From NCBI RefSeq assembly GCF_023276435.1, contig NZ_JALLPO010000032.1:1-64000 (forward strand): DNA of 64,000 nucleotides. The letters run 5' to 3'. Source of the DNA: Sphaerisporangium perillae. Lineage in GTDB: Bacteria > Actinomycetota > Actinomycetes > Streptosporangiales > Streptosporangiaceae. Every line of letters begins with the position of its first letter. The stretch's first letter is position 1. The position numbers and the translations under genes were made by a program. The notes below the pieces were generated by a model. The model worked only from the letters and a program-made list of their open reading frames with translations. It did no database searches and was not told the origin of the DNA. Below, one piece after another: positions 1,273 to 60,039 of the stretch.

Positions 1273-1965
1273 TCACGCCGGCGGCTGGGCGAGTTTGGCG
1301 GCCACGGCGTCGAGGACCCAGTCCAGGCCGGTCGCGAAGGACGCCTCGGCGTCCACCTCCGTGCCGTCGTGCACGGCCTTGGCCAGTGCCGGGAAGCGGC
1401 CCGTGGCCAGCATCCTCCTCAGATGCGGGCCGGAGGCGCGCTGCCAGTCGCGCTTGGACAGGCCCGTGGCGCGCTCGGCCCGCAGGTTCGCGATCTCGCG
1501 CCTGATCGCGCCAGTGAAGTAGGCGCTGACAGTCTCCACGGCGCGCAGGACGGTGTCGAGGTCGGCGAGGCCGTCGAGGGCGGCCAGCGTGGCCTCAGTC
1601 ACGGCGAGGGCGTTTGGGCCCAGGGCCGGACGGCCGCCGAGCAGGTCGGCCAGCCATTCGTGACGGCGGGTGGCCTGCCTGGTGCGGTGGGCGCGGATGC
1701 GCAGCACCTCCCGCCAGTCGCCGGGCTGCTCCTCGGGGAGGATCTCGGCGTGGACCTCGTCCACCATGAGGTCGAACAGCTCCTCCTTGGTGGAGATGTA
1801 TCCGTACAGCCGCATCGGGCCGGCGTCCAGCCGGGCGGCGACCTTGCGCAACGACACCGCCTCCAGCCCGCCCTCGTCGGCCAGCGCGATGGCGGCGGCA
1901 ACGATTCGCTCCCGGTCGAGCGGCACGGGGCGAGTCGGCGGCTCCGGCCGGTCCCACACAGTCAT
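1273..1965 (-). CDS. TetR/AcrR family repressor
   Basis: DNA-binding repressor of 230 residues. The N-terminal helix-turn-helix is clear (RERIVAAAIALADEGG, then SLRKVAARLDAGPMRLYGYI, about residues 17-60). It is followed by an all-helical ligand domain of the TetR_C type. I chose the ATG at 1965. The frame is open to a TTG at 2004, but that stretch contains the direct repeats that look like the operator. It is divergent from the TetX-like monooxygenase, which it most likely represses together with itself. The inducing ligand cannot be read from sequence. Confidence 0.85.
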   Translation of the reverse strand: MTVWDRPEPPTRPVPLDRERIVAAAIALADEGGLEAVSLRKVAARLDAGPMRLYGYISTKEELFDLMVDEVHAEILPEEQPGDWREVLRIRAHRTRQATRRHEWLADLLGGRPALGPNALAVTEATLAALDGLADLDTVLRAVETVSAYFTGAIRREIANLRAERATGLSKRDWQRASGPHLRRMLATGRFPALAKAVHDGTEVDAEASFATGLDWVLDAVAAKLAQPPA

Positions 1966-2018: not shown

Positions 2019-3239
2019 ATGAGACATGGTATCGCCGTGATTGGGGCCGGCCCCGCCGGCCTCACCTTCGCCTGCGTCCTGCACCGCCACGGTCACCCCG
2101 TCACCATCCTCGAACGCGATCCCGCCCCCGACGCCCGTCCCCCGGGCGGCACGCTCGACCTGCACGAAGGGATGGGCCAGCTCGCGCTGGGCAAGGCGGG
2201 GCTGCTGGCGGAGTTCCAGGCGCTGTCCCGTCCCGAGGGGCAGGCCATGCGCATCCTGGACGCGGACGGGACCGTCCTCCGCGACTGGCAACCCCGTCCG
2301 GGTGACCGGGCCAATCCCGAGATCGACCGGGGGCAACTCCGTGACCTGCTGCTCGGCCCCCTCGACGTTCAGTGGGGGCGGGGCGTGACGGAGGTAGTGC
2401 CGGGGACGCGGGACGGCGTGCTGGTCCGTTTCGCGGACGGGCGACAGGAGACGTTCGACCTCGTGATCGGCGCGGACGGCGCCTGGTCCCGGGTCCGCCC
2501 GGCAATCTCGTCCGCGACGCCGCACTACACCGGCGTCACCTTGGTCGAGACCTCCCTGGACGACGTCGACACCCGCCACCCCGACCTCGCCCGGCTGATC
2601 GGCGACGGTTCCATGGCTGTGTACGGCGTGAACCGCGCCCTAGTCGCCCAGCGCAACAGCGGCGGCCACGTCAAGGTGTACGCCCAGTTCCGCGCGCCGC
2701 TGGACTGGCACACGAACCTGGACCGGCATATGGGCCTGAACCGGCGCGCGGGCCTGGACGCAGGCATGGAGGCAGGCATGGACGCAGGCATGGACGCAGG
2801 CATGGACGCGGGCCTGGACCTGGCCGACGTCGAGGCCGTGCGATCAAGCCTGCTGGCTCTGTTCGATGGCTGGGCCGCTCCCGTCCTCGACCTCCTCCGC
2901 CACGGCACCGCTTTCGTCCACCGCCCCCTCTACGTCCTGCCCGTGTCCCACACCTGGGCCCACGTCCCCGGGGTGACGCTACTGGGCGACGCCGCCCACC
3001 TGATGCCCCCATTGGGGGTGGGCGCGAACCTCGCGATGCTGGAAGGCGCCGAACTCGCCGAGTCCGTCGCCGCCGCCCCCGGCCCTGGCGATCTGGACGA
3101 GGCCGTCCGCGCCTTCGAGGAACAGATGTGGGCACGGGCCGGCAGGTGGGCGAAGATCACGACGGCCGGTCTGGAACGCCTCGTGAGCCCGGACCCCACC
3201 GAAGCCCTCGCCCTCTTCGACGAAGTTCAGCCATCCTGA
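2019..3239 (+). CDS. TetX-like FAD-dependent monooxygenase
   Basis: Single-component flavoprotein hydroxylase, 406 residues. The N-terminal dinucleotide fold has GAGPAGLTFACVL (about residues 9-21). GGTLDLHEGMGQLALGKAGL and NPEIDRGQLRDLLL follow at the positions where the tetracycline-modifying TetX family has closely similar motifs. The second FAD motif, GDAAHLMPP, is near residue 325. TetX-like proteins hydroxylate tetracyclines, but many relatives act on other aromatic substrates, so the substrate is not assigned. Residues 245-268 form an in-frame run of (G-M/L-D/E-A) repeats absent from typical relatives. It is expressed divergently from a TetR repressor, the usual layout for an inducible detoxification gene. 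Confidence 0.85.
   Translation: MRHGIAVIGAGPAGLTFACVLHRHGHPVTILERDPAPDARPPGGTLDLHEGMGQLALGKAGLLAEFQALSRPEGQAMRILDADGTVLRDWQPRPGDRANPEIDRGQLRDLLLGPLDVQWGRGVTEVVPGTRDGVLVRFADGRQETFDLVIGADGAWSRVRPAISSATPHYTGVTLVETSLDDVDTRHPDLARLIGDGSMAVYGVNRALVAQRNSGGHVKVYAQFRAPLDWHTNLDRHMGLNRRAGLDAGMEAGMDAGMDAGMDAGLDLADVEAVRSSLLALFDGWAAPVLDLLRHGTAFVHRPLYVLPVSHTWAHVPGVTLLGDAAHLMPPLGVGANLAMLEGAELAESVAAAPGPGDLDEAVRAFEEQMWARAGRWAKITTAGLERLVSPDPTEALALFDEVQPS
2751..2822 (+). repeat. 12-bp tandem repeat inside the monooxygenase gene
   Basis: Six consecutive 12-bp units of the form GGC(A/C)TGGACGCA, with the two central units identical. They encode a Gly-Met/Leu-Asp/Glu-Ala repeat. The length is a multiple of three, so copy-number changes would keep the frame. 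Confidence 0.9.
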
Positions 3240-56835: not shown

Positions 56836-58026
56836 ATGAGTGTTCGCGCCTTCCGTTCCATGCGACCGGCCGCCGCCGTCGCCGCGCTCGTGACGGGCAT
56901 CCTGGCGCTGTCGGGCTGTGGTGGTTCCAGCCTGAGCCAGTCCGGGGACACCCAGTCCAGCGGCCCGGTCAAGATCGGCCTACTGGTGCCGCTATCGGGC
57001 GTCTACGCGCAGCTCGGCCAGGACATGCGCGACGGCTTCAAGCTCTACCTCGACCAGCACGGCGGCAAGCTCGGCGGGCATACGGTCGACGTCGTCACGG
57101 CCGACGAGGGCGAAGGCCCGCAGACCGGCGTGCCCGCCGCGCAGAAGCTGGTGAACCAGGACCACGTCTCCGCGGTTGCCGGTGTGGTCAACTCCGCCAC
57201 CGCTCTGGGCTTACGCGACTTCTTCGACGAGTCCAAGGTCCCGTTACTGGTGGCCAACGCCGGCGCCGATGACATCACCGGCGCGCGCAAGTCCCTCTAC
57301 GTCTGGCGTACCAGCTTTGCCAACGGCAAGGTCGCGGGCGCGCTCGGGCCCACCGTCGTCAAAGAGGCCAGTGGGCCGGTCTATCTCATCGCCGCCGATT
57401 ATGCCGCCGGGCGGGAGATGGTCGCCGGGTTCCGCAAGACCTTCGTGGCGGCGGGCGGCAAGGTCGCCGGGGAGGAGTACTCCCCGTTCGGCAAGACCCA
57501 GGACTACCAGCCCTTCCTGTCGAAGATCCGTACCTCCGGCGCCAAGGCCGTGTTCGCCTTCTACGCCGGCGCCGAGGCGGTCAGCTTCGTCAAGCAGTAC
57601 CAGCAGTTCGGGCTGGCCGACCGCATCCCACTGTACGGCACCGGCTTTCTGACCGAGGGCGGCGCGCTGGCCGCCCAAGGCAAGGCCGCCGTCGGCGTGA
57701 AGACCTCCCTGCACTACTCCACCGAACTGAACACCCCACGCAATACCGAGTTCGTGGCCGCCTACAGCAAGGCGTACAGCAAGTCGCCGACGGTGTACGC
57801 CGTGCAGGCCTACGACACTGCGGCCGTGCTGGACAAGGCACTCGCCAAGGCGTCAGGCGGCGAAAAACTGGCCACGGCGCTGACCGGCGTCGGCCCCATC
57901 GACAGCCCCCGCGGCCGGTGGAGCTTCGACGCCGACCACGACGCCCAGCAGCAGTACTACCTGCGTGAAGTCCGTGCCGGCAGTGGCGACACCTTCGTCA
58001 ACGCCGTCGTCGGCGACCTGAGCTGA
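56836..58026 (+). CDS. Liv-type ABC transporter substrate-binding lipoprotein (second system)
   Basis: 396 residues. Signal peptide with lipobox ILALSGCG, then VKIGLLVPLSGVYAQLGQDM, VDVVTADEGEGPQTGVPAAQ, VYLIAADYAAGREMVAGFRK and VYAVQAYDTAAVLDKALAKA, typical of LivJ/aromatic-compound-binding proteins. First gene of a five-gene + operon. The fold is shared with receptors for benzoate-type and phenylpropanoid ligands as well as amino acids. The position next to box-pathway remains favours an aromatic acid. Confidence 0.9.
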   Translation: MSVRAFRSMRPAAAVAALVTGILALSGCGGSSLSQSGDTQSSGPVKIGLLVPLSGVYAQLGQDMRDGFKLYLDQHGGKLGGHTVDVVTADEGEGPQTGVPAAQKLVNQDHVSAVAGVVNSATALGLRDFFDESKVPLLVANAGADDITGARKSLYVWRTSFANGKVAGALGPTVVKEASGPVYLIAADYAAGREMVAGFRKTFVAAGGKVAGEEYSPFGKTQDYQPFLSKIRTSGAKAVFAFYAGAEAVSFVKQYQQFGLADRIPLYGTGFLTEGGALAAQGKAAVGVKTSLHYSTELNTPRNTEFVAAYSKAYSKSPTVYAVQAYDTAAVLDKALAKASGGEKLATALTGVGPIDSPRGRWSFDADHDAQQQYYLREVRAGSGDTFVNAVVGDLS

Positions 58027-58038
58027 GCGAATCCGCAC

Positions 58039-58914
58039 ATGGCCGCCTATCTGGTGAGCGTGCTCAACGGGCTGGCGATGGGCTCGCTGCTGTTCGCGAT
58101 CGCGCTGGGCCTGTCTTTGGTGTTCGGCATGATGGACGTGCTAAATCTCGCGCACGGCGCGATCTACCTGGCCGGCGCGTATCTCGCGGTCGCCCTGCTC
58201 CCCGGAGACGACGTGGGCATGGGGACGTTCGTCCTGGCGGTGCTGGCCGCGGCGGCTGTCGGGGCGATTCTCGGCGGCGTACTGGCCGGGCTGACGCGGG
58301 CCACCCCCGGCCACCTCGACCAGGCCCTGCTCACGCTCGGCGTCTCCCTGGTGGTCGCCGAATTGCTGTCGGTGGCATTCGGCGAGGAAGTGCATGCCAT
58401 CGCCGCGCCCGCGCCGTTCGACGGCGGTGTCCCGGTGCTCGGCGAGACCTACCCGGCCTACCGGCTGCTGGTGATCGGATTCGGGGCCGTGCTGGCAGTG
58501 GCGGTCTACCTGCTGATCGAACGCAGCAGGTTCGGCTCGCTGATCCGCGCAACGGTCGCCGACCGCGCCATGGTGTCAGCACTCGGCATCAACACCGGCC
58601 TGGTCCTGACCGGGGTCTTCGCCGCGGGCGCCGCGCTGGCCGCAGCGGGCGGGGTCCTGGCCGGCCCCATCCTGGGCGCCCAGCCCGGTCTCGACGAGAA
58701 GGTGCTACTGCTCGCGCTGGTCGTGGTCGTGATCGGCGGCCTGGGCTCGGTCCGCGGCGCGCTGCTCGGCGCCGTACTGATCGGGCAGGTACAGGCTCTG
58801 GGCACCTCGCTCCTGCCGGAATACGCCTCATTTCTGATCTTCGTGGCGATGGCCCTGGTGCTCCTGCTGCGCCCGGCCGGTCTACTTCCACCCCGGACGG
58901 CGGTGCGTACTTGA
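58039..58914 (+). CDS. Liv-type ABC permease, LivH-like (second system)
   Basis: 291 residues. AYLVSVLNGLAMGSLLFAIA and DVLNLAHGAIYLAGAYLAVA at the N terminus, FGSLIRATVADRAMVSALGI as the coupling loop, VVVVIGGLGSVRGALLGAVL near the end. Its TGA stop falls inside the terminal TTGA of an IS605-type right end, so the native C terminus may have been replaced by the last few codons (RTAVRT). Confidence 0.9.
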   Translation: MAAYLVSVLNGLAMGSLLFAIALGLSLVFGMMDVLNLAHGAIYLAGAYLAVALLPGDDVGMGTFVLAVLAAAAVGAILGGVLAGLTRATPGHLDQALLTLGVSLVVAELLSVAFGEEVHAIAAPAPFDGGVPVLGETYPAYRLLVIGFGAVLAVAVYLLIERSRFGSLIRATVADRAMVSALGINTGLVLTGVFAAGAALAAAGGVLAGPILGAQPGLDEKVLLLALVVVVIGGLGSVRGALLGAVLIGQVQALGTSLLPEYASFLIFVAMALVLLLRPAGLLPPRTAVRT

Positions 58915-59106
58915 CCTCCTCCCCCTCGTGAACGAGGGGGATTGCGACCCTCACGGGTCAGGTTTCCTGCTTCGCCGCCGGTCGCCCGCCAGAGAGGACT
59001 CTTCTTTGAGGTCTACACCAGCTCCACAGGCGTTTCACCTCTCTGCCGGCCCGGCAGCGAGAATGTCGGTGGCCGCGTTGACATCCCGATCATGAACCGC
59101 GCCGCA
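58911..59106 (-). mobile_element. IS200/IS605-type remnant: TnpB 3' end plus right end
   Basis: On the minus strand the segment reads CGAVHDRDVNAATDILAAGP then AER and a stop. This is the RuvC-III region and C terminus of TnpB (consensus HDRDVNAAxNIL). It continues into hairpins GACCC/GGGTC (58946-58959) and CCCCCTCGT/ACGAGGGGG (58921-58940), and ends in TCAA at 58914-58911. That layout is the 3' end of tnpB with the structured right end, which in intact elements also forms the scaffold of the omega RNA. The left end and the rest of tnpB are missing. The plus-strand livM ATG at 59092 is the complement of the HDR codons. Confidence 0.7.
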
Positions 59107-60039
59107 GCTACCCGCCGCACCACCCTGATCGCCGTCGCGGTCATCACGCTGCTGGTGGCGGCCCCGCTGGCGCTCGGGCCGTACGCGGTGACGACGATGA
59201 CCCGGATGCTCGCCTTCGCGGTGCTGGTGCTTGGCGTCGACCTGCTGACCGGCATCACGGGTCTGCCCACACTGGGCCAGGCGGCGTACTTCGGTGCCGG
59301 TGCCTACACGGCCGTGCTCGTCGGTCTGCACATCACGTCGGACGCGATGGCGCAGGCCCTGGCCGGGACGGCGGTGGGCCTGATAGCCGCCGCGGCCACC
59401 GGGTGGGTCGCAGTCCGCGCCCGCGGCATCGTCTTCCTCATGCTCACCCTGGCGATCGGCGAATCGCTGCATCAGGTGGCCGCCACCTGGCCCGCCGTCG
59501 GCGCCAGCAACGGCCTGGCCGGCATGCCGCCGATCACTTTGTTCGGCGGCCCGCCACTGCTCCCCGCCGGGTTCGTCTACTGGTGGGTCCTGGCGGCGGC
59601 GATCACCGTGTTCGCCGCCGTAACGCTCATCACCCGGTCCCCGTACGGGCGGACACTGCGCGGCGTCCGCGACAACGAGTCCCGGATGCGGGCACTGGGC
59701 TACCGTCCAGCGCTCGCCAGATACAGCGTCTTCTGTCTGGCCGGGGCCATCGCCGGAGCCGGCGGGGCGCTGTGGGCGGCACAGGGCCGCTTCGTCTCAC
59801 CCGGGGACCTGGGTTTCGAGGTCGCCGCGCTCGCCCTCCTCAGTGTGGTCATCGGTGGAGCGGGAAGTCTGTGGGGCCCCTGCCTTGGCGCGGCGCTGGT
59901 GCTGCTCGTACGTGACAACCTGTCGGCCTCCATCGGCGGGCACGGTCCGCTGGTGCTGGGTCTGGTCTTCGTGGCCGTCGTCTTCCTGCTTCCGCGCGGC
60001 GTGGCCGGGATCCGCCATCGGAGGGAAAGCCGCTCATGA
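59092..60039 (+). CDS. Liv-type ABC permease, LivM-like (second system)
   Basis: 315 residues. LGVDLLTGITGLPTLGQAAY near residue 55, ARGIVFLMLTLAIGESLHQV, YGRTLRGVRDNESRMRALGY as the coupling loop, LALLSVVIGGAGSLWGPCLG. The ATG at 59092 lies inside the TnpB remnant, and no clear ribosome binding site precedes it, so the first residues (MNRAAAT) may be derived from the insertion. An alternative start further in is possible. The helices themselves are complete. Confidence 0.85.
   Translation: MNRAAATRRTTLIAVAVITLLVAAPLALGPYAVTTMTRMLAFAVLVLGVDLLTGITGLPTLGQAAYFGAGAYTAVLVGLHITSDAMAQALAGTAVGLIAAAATGWVAVRARGIVFLMLTLAIGESLHQVAATWPAVGASNGLAGMPPITLFGGPPLLPAGFVYWWVLAAAITVFAAVTLITRSPYGRTLRGVRDNESRMRALGYRPALARYSVFCLAGAIAGAGGALWAAQGRFVSPGDLGFEVAALALLSVVIGGAGSLWGPCLGAALVLLVRDNLSASIGGHGPLVLGLVFVAVVFLLPRGVAGIRHRRESRS

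Follow-up and report, generated by a model that had tools for sequence, protein, structure and literature searches.

A decayed TnpB transposon end at a livH/livM junction and a family of elements often found at start codons

Introduction

How selfish elements insert into dense bacterial genomes without killing their host is a long-standing question. It is posed again by an operon of Sphaerisporangium perillae that lies in the window analyzed here, which is the whole 64,000 nucleotide stretch at positions 1 to 64,000 of contig NZ_JALLPO010000032.1. According to open reading frames and Pfam matches, the operon encodes an ABC transporter of the branched-chain amino acid/urea type, with a binding protein gene (56836-58026), a livH-like permease gene (58039-58914, plus strand; BPD_transp_2, PF02653, E=7e-29), a livM-like permease gene (59092-60039, plus strand) and an ATPase gene starting at 60036. 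By NCBIfam the two permeases fall close to UrtB/UrtC and LivH/LivM, though their scores do not reach the curated cut-offs. The livM and livG genes overlap in an ATGA (60036-60039, plus strand), and 177 nt separate the livH stop codon from the livM ATG. An earlier note, made from the sequence alone, read this spacer as the right end of an IS605/TnpB element that supplies a stop codon to livH and a start codon to livM. What kind of element left this end between two permease genes, and how could the genes on either side of such an insertion still be read?

Results

The spacer is the right end of a TnpB element

The remnant of a tnpB-only, IS605-type element extends over 201 bases (58911-59111, minus strand), as delimited by genome matches and alignment, and consists of a TnpB C terminus, a stop codon, a structured region and a terminal TCAA. 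On the minus strand the last tnpB codons (59035-59111) encode CGAVHDRDVNAATDILAAGPAER and end in a stop codon at 59035-59037; similar C termini occur in the reading frames of loci L023 and L025. Next comes the region that is conserved best among the right ends (58911-59038, minus strand), the putative guide-RNA (omega) scaffold region, judged from 11 aligned copies and their shared predicted fold. It contains two hairpins on the minus strand that lead to the TCAA, as the earlier note had it: a second hairpin GACCCGTGAGGGTC (58946-58959), paired in the predicted fold and showing two-sided changes at 3 of its pairs, and the terminal hairpin TCCCCCTCGTTCACGAGGGGGA (58920-58941), which is also paired in the fold. 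The terminal TCAA (58911-58914, minus strand) reads TTGA on the plus strand, and the livH TGA (58912-58914) lies inside it. At the other side of the spacer, the predicted livM ATG (59092-59094) is the complement of the His codon CAT of the TnpB HDR codons, and about the first six livM codons are antisense tnpB. These coordinates and letters were all reproduced on recheck. If an omega RNA were made, its guide would be antisense to the livH 3' end (58891-58910, minus strand), a position that we presume by analogy with TnpB elements.

When positions 58800-59250 were compared with the own genome, there were 25 matches including the self match, and 22 of the 24 others fell within the right-end part. 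The six best span nearly all of 58911-59111 at 91-94% identity, and the best of all has 94% identity with E=8e-81. With so many further copies the TnpB likeness is not due to chance, and chance similarity was rejected. Several of the matches adjoin tnpB sequences above the Pfam cut-off for PF07282, a model with 10 matches in the genome. The reading HDRDVNAAT, on whose TnpB matches the earlier interpretation was staked, does match TnpB C termini of the same genome. Alignment with intact right ends shows homology up to about 59108-59111, after which the conserved part of livM begins. A left end of the window copy was not found.

The livH/livM junction in relatives

Among 30 distinct relatives, the livH stop overlaps ATGA in 21, GTGA in 8 and TTGA in 1, and the codon is open in the livM frame in 28 (20 ATGA and 8 GTGA; one ATGA is out of frame). 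The earlier interpretation would have suffered if relatives shared the 177-bp spacer without TnpB similarity; the right end was matched in none of 43 relative livH-livM loci. The junction aligns exactly, with a relative reading, for example, GTGCGCGC/ATGA and the window GTGCGTAC/TTGA, and the end of the livH-like protein, GLLPPRTAVR, aligns with relatives' ends in AVRA or AVHA. The element thus sits immediately before the native ATGA, and livH still stops in frame, at the TGA within the element's TTGA. That the remnant supplies the livH stop is supported, as had been claimed. The claim that it also supplies the livM start most likely stands for the start codon itself, but the element did not simply add one: because ATGA or GTGA is open in the livM frame of 28 of the 30 relatives, the native livM start and a variable N-terminal tail were most likely lost from the window. 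The ATG at 59092 is a predicted start. No Shine-Dalgarno sequence was found within the 20 nt upstream of it, and livM is perhaps weakly translated from this ATG in antisense tnpB codons.

Other copies in the same genome

Intact tnpB genes, whose presence elsewhere the earlier note had proposed to check, exist in two copies with a full reading frame (C29 and C28), and their scaffolds are nearly identical to that of the remnant; the C28 protein was confirmed as TnpB. The protein of locus L025 is TnpB in both Pfam (PF01385, PF07282 and PF12323) and NCBIfam (NF040570, guided_TnpB, 335.6 bits with a cut-off of 100), with HTH_OrfB, OrfB_IS605 and Cas12f1-like domains. The family has a subterminal hairpin near each end, that of the right end being seen also in the predicted fold; in the window copy only the right end is present. 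Many other copies keep the left end, where the strand opposite tnpB reads a hairpin, then TCTCCACGCTTAAGGAGATTCG, then ATGA, an arrangement that puts a Shine-Dalgarno sequence ahead of the target's own ATG. At no more than 2 mismatches, the genome contains 22 occurrences of TTAAGGAGATTCGATG, versus 0 of the reversed control.

The genes behind these ATG codons include aspS, rmlA, an isochorismatase, an aminotransferase IV, a TPP enzyme, a LacI-type regulator and others. In NCBIfam, the aspS model starts at residue 1 and the rmlA model at residue 2 of the protein read from the left-end ATG. Sixteen downstream proteins of the genome were called coding, 14 were run against Pfam and 12 matched a family; ten hand-picked downstream proteins from other genomes all did so. 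The sample of 25 left ends from the own genome is partly biased, since only 12 were reached through the right end (10 with a Shine-Dalgarno sequence, 9 coding), the other 13 having been found by a pattern that includes the Shine-Dalgarno sequence. The left-end ATG at L095 opens only 8 codons.

Transposase-free copies with both ends span 32-278 bp. In the own genome, L027, L028, L030-L033, L035 and L036 have both ends and no transposase gene in 140-278 bp. In tiny remnants of 32, 37 and 53 bp (near L101 1482-1513, L105 1504-1540 and L095 1504-1556), all that is left is TTGACC from the outermost right end and, before ATGA, AAGGAGATTCG from the left end; the 37 bp left at L105 read TTGACC...AAGGAGATTCG. 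Elements of the tnpB-only type lack tnpA by definition. We also considered whether the own genome encodes a transposase of this family and rejected the idea: the draft assembly yielded only two partial Y1 matches, both at contig ends, and the 1.6 kb examined around them held no ends of the window-type family. Other TnpB sequences and Y1 transposase fragments were seen at L014, L015, L016, L019 and L020, several of them at contig ends, and are perhaps collapsed repeats of the draft assembly.

Empty sites and the right end as a stop codon

For five sites of the own genome, we joined the flanks and looked for the resulting sequence in the 11 genomes of the genus, of which the own genome is one. 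The hisS-aspS junction is uninterrupted in 8 of the 10 other genomes, where relatives read AAGGAGAAACTGACCAC/ATGATCC, the slash marking the place at which 278 bp stand in the own genome. Empty sites were also found for L105 in 8 genomes, for L031 in 6 (with length differences upstream), for L033 in 4 (one with GTGA) and for L023, a full tnpB copy, in 2, where relatives read CCAAGGAGGAGTCC/ATGAGAG. At all five junctions the empty flank joins directly to ATGA with no visible duplication or loss, so that insertion is 3' of a fixed tetranucleotide and without target duplication. A native AAGGAG, GGAGG or GGAGA precedes the ATG of relatives at four of the five junctions; relatives of L033 have only AAAGG or GAGAGG. 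In the own genome the native flank holds an AGGA/GGAG-type tetramer or longer in 9 of 17 copies with both ends. The comparison indicates that the element entered immediately 5' of the ATG, downstream of the native Shine-Dalgarno sequence where there is one, and brought a replacement. The alternative that the left-end Shine-Dalgarno sequence belongs to the target was rejected: a native one, at those empty sites that have it, precedes the insertion point, and that of the element is found again at sites that are not related.

By a strict codon-position test, the right-end TGA closes a coding upstream frame at 7 of 28 right ends from other genomes and 8 of 26 from the own genome, the window included; livH misses on a tie in this test but is certain by homology. 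One of the eight closing right ends of the own genome, L033, has CTGA in place of TTGA.

The left end in other genomes

In other genomes we anchored the analysis on TnpB in order to avoid selection by the Shine-Dalgarno sequence. A TnpB protein search of 342 Streptosporangiales genomes gave a match at E<=1e-110 in at least 145. Our sample comprised 89 loci from other genomes: the search itself gave 29, and we picked the other 60 manually from its list, going down the ranks and skipping two entries. The left end was scorable in 83, after L147 and L160 were dropped from the 29 and L237, L238, L242 and L243 from the 60; by eye, L238 and L242 have a Shine-Dalgarno sequence and ATGA, and L243 ends in ATAA. 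An outward Shine-Dalgarno sequence is present at 71 of the 83 tnpB-anchored sites, compared with 4 of 202 background ATGA in the flanks, and a coding pattern in frame with the left-end ATG at 56 of the 83, compared with 51 of the 202, 7 of these 51 looking like starts.

After pooling with the own genome, 91 distances from Shine-Dalgarno sequence to ATG could be measured, 90 of them being 5 or 6 nt. Core and spacer vary among copies (AAGGAG-ATTCG, GGAGG-TTTCTG, GGAGG-ATCTTG), while the presence of a Shine-Dalgarno sequence and the 5-6 nt spacing persist. A classifier that uses only G+C by codon position called 36 of the 108 pooled sites not coding or gene starts. Sites with a Shine-Dalgarno sequence were coding in 68 of 93 cases and sites lacking it in 4 of 15 (Fisher P=0.0008 over 108 pooled sites, a test that ignores relatedness when several loci come from one genome and are not fully independent); by subset P was 0.18 for 56 sites, 0.047 for 27 and 0.037 for the 25 own sites. 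Sites free of the Shine-Dalgarno sequence thus appear to be mostly not gene starts. TCAT was found at 107 of the 108 sites, a figure partly built in, since scoring sought ATGA or GTGA near the left-end tail. The predicted accessibility of the Shine-Dalgarno core was no higher than in shuffled flanks (P=0.17), and it was set aside as added support because the difference is not significant.

The left-end pattern stripped of its Shine-Dalgarno part occurs in 104 of 345 genomes, compared with four for the reversed control; some matches, such as L112, L116 and L117, have no ATGA behind them. By eye, ten related left ends lack a Shine-Dalgarno sequence (L108-L110, L119, L127-L131 and L135), nine of which belong to genera g3, g5 and g35. 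Those at L108-L110, L127, L129, L131 and L135, from other genera, stand before ATGA, and five (L110, L127, L129, L131 and L135) stand before coding starts, so the feature is not universal.

One genome outside the order, in the same class, has two copies of the Shine-Dalgarno type, one before hisH and one between purK and purE. The latter is a TnpB element (L274, about 1373-2752) that reads AAGGAG-ATCGGG-ATGA, and its right end supplies the purK stop. In the remaining genomes of the search outside the order (at most 59% identity), a left end of this type was not seen by eye; two of the matches, L270 and L277, stop at a contig edge.

Discussion

The window remnant itself is a decayed transposon end, as the earlier note had read it; the finding is the family behind it, whose frequent location at ATGA start codons and outward Shine-Dalgarno sequence that note had missed. 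We present a model, based on sequence comparison, that as a whole we hold with good confidence. As the comparison with relatives shows, a tnpB-only IS605-type element inserted opposite to the operon strand, 3' of the TCAT that is the complement of the livH-stop/livM-start ATGA. In their sequence, intact members fit such sites: the left end has its outward Shine-Dalgarno sequence 5-6 nt before the target ATG, and the right-end TTGA closes an upstream gene that formerly ended in the ATGA overlap. Both flanking genes would thereby still be translated, which may be why copies survive. At livH/livM a later deletion would have run from inside tnpB into livM. The simplest account of the missing parts is that this deletion removed most of tnpB, the left end together with its Shine-Dalgarno sequence, and the native start and first codons of livM. 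With these gone, livM would probably be read from the ATG in antisense tnpB codons, and the leftover minus-strand scaffold could make an omega RNA against the uninserted livH/livM allele.

Our best reading of the family is that of an IS605-type TnpB element often located at start codons and carrying a substitute for the ribosome-binding site that it displaces, so that the gene on which it lands can probably still be read. It seems somewhat probable, in a stronger form of this reading, that a TnpB lineage of the Streptosporangiales and at least one outside genome has evolved a translation adaptor and homes to ATGA starts, often at operon junctions. With its own Shine-Dalgarno sequence downstream and an in-frame stop upstream, it would insert almost silently even beside housekeeping genes such as hisS-aspS and purK-purE, and remnants of 30-50 bp could stay as working ribosome-binding sites. 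If true, start-codon landing together with replacement of the ribosome-binding site would answer the question of host survival for one group of elements, and the family would readily supply new translation signals. On this reading, the guides of TnpB in this group should also span the native ribosome-binding region of host genes.

The tnpB-only (IS1341-type) members of IS200/IS605 have the same domains, subterminal hairpins, absence of target duplication and insertion 3' of a tetranucleotide, the last being given as a general rule for IS200/IS605 in the passages of PMC7290912. The present family differs from that account in its outward Shine-Dalgarno sequence before a target ATGA, which is absent from those passages, just as the term start codon is absent from the main text. 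An IS605 element with an outward Shine-Dalgarno sequence was not found described among the open-licence titles and abstracts surveyed, which is weak evidence of absence. The pneumococcal BOX repeat, which we take to be unrelated to the present element, resembles it as a small repeat that supplies a stop codon. In the passages of PMC3049150, BOX encodes the stop codon of a gene in 36 cases, and three BOX-encoded reading frames lacked good Shine-Dalgarno candidates. The palindrome-associated transposable elements (PATEs) of Haloquadratum, as described in passages of PMC3119063, are transposase-free, some being derived from IS605-type elements by deletion of the core and one being 52 bp long. In this they are like the 32-278 bp copies with both ends. 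They differ in that Shine-Dalgarno or start-codon targeting is not described in those passages, and several of their deletions lie between direct repeats (PMC3119063); the window copy, by contrast, is missing one end, and the loss reaches into a host gene. PATEs have both IS605-type ends; the window remnant, with no left end found, falls outside that definition.

Landing at start codons may be a matter of survivorship rather than preference. The transposase would need TCAT, with insertions inside genes purged and those at ATGA starts surviving because the coding sequence stays intact; the AAGGAG or GGAGG resembling a Shine-Dalgarno sequence would then be a transposase recognition sequence. The target tetranucleotide by itself yields ATGA, the classifier placed 36 of the 108 scored sites outside gene starts, and left ends that lack the Shine-Dalgarno sequence also precede coding starts. 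We nevertheless think survivorship alone rather unlikely. Spacer and core change between copies while the Shine-Dalgarno sequence and its spacing persist, the existence of tails lacking it suggests that transposition does not require it, and its loss falls mostly at non-gene sites. For the window copy, another account is that of inert debris, a partial deletion scar without function whose stop and start codons are coincidental. The missing left end, the want of a Shine-Dalgarno sequence before livM and the several decaying copies in the own genome all agree with this, and we give it a modest chance, slightly better than that of survivorship alone. The stop codon, however, is no coincidence: when an element goes in right in front of an ATGA in which stop and start overlap, the upstream frame comes to read NNT TGA, and under the strict test a coding frame is closed by 15 of 53 other right ends.

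The idea that the remnant is an active orphan omega RNA, guiding TnpB in trans against insertion-free chromosomes, for example, or regulating livH, we regard as improbable. Its scaffold is conserved and shares the predicted fold, and the full-length tnpB genes of C29 and C28, with their nearly identical scaffolds, make use of the remnant RNA in trans possible. Against it, the remnant's own site has TCAA where TCAT is expected, and the copy would hardly be mobilizable with its left end gone. Over 18 nt, no TCAT-preceded match to the guide in the own genome has fewer than 3 mismatches, so self-targeting was set aside; weak guide matches number 26 in all, versus 11 for the reversed pattern. Landing on start codons with replacement of translation signals, followed at livH/livM by deletion, is the reading that we retain.

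The right-end region is strongly conserved in the 11 aligned copies, and the predicted common fold includes a long-range stem; with both-side changes at only 4 of 51 pairs, covariation is weak. A known RNA regulator in the spacer was considered and set aside, as Rfam yields only HgcC (RF00062), with a match below gathering at 58899-59001 (minus strand, E=4e-4). Two of eight other loci also have weak HgcC matches, L023 at 2219-2367 (plus strand) and L139 at 1360-1464 (minus strand), and the scores in the three matching sources of the nine searched are 26.0-27.7, compared with a gathering threshold of 50 bits. The model is matched from its first to its last position, including GGGAGGAGGUCA in L023. 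HgcC is, we presume, an RNA of unknown function whose known members are archaeal. Its 3' consensus GGGAGGAGGUCA followed by a variable tail looks like a TnpB scaffold followed by a guide, and HgcC may be an archaeal omega RNA.
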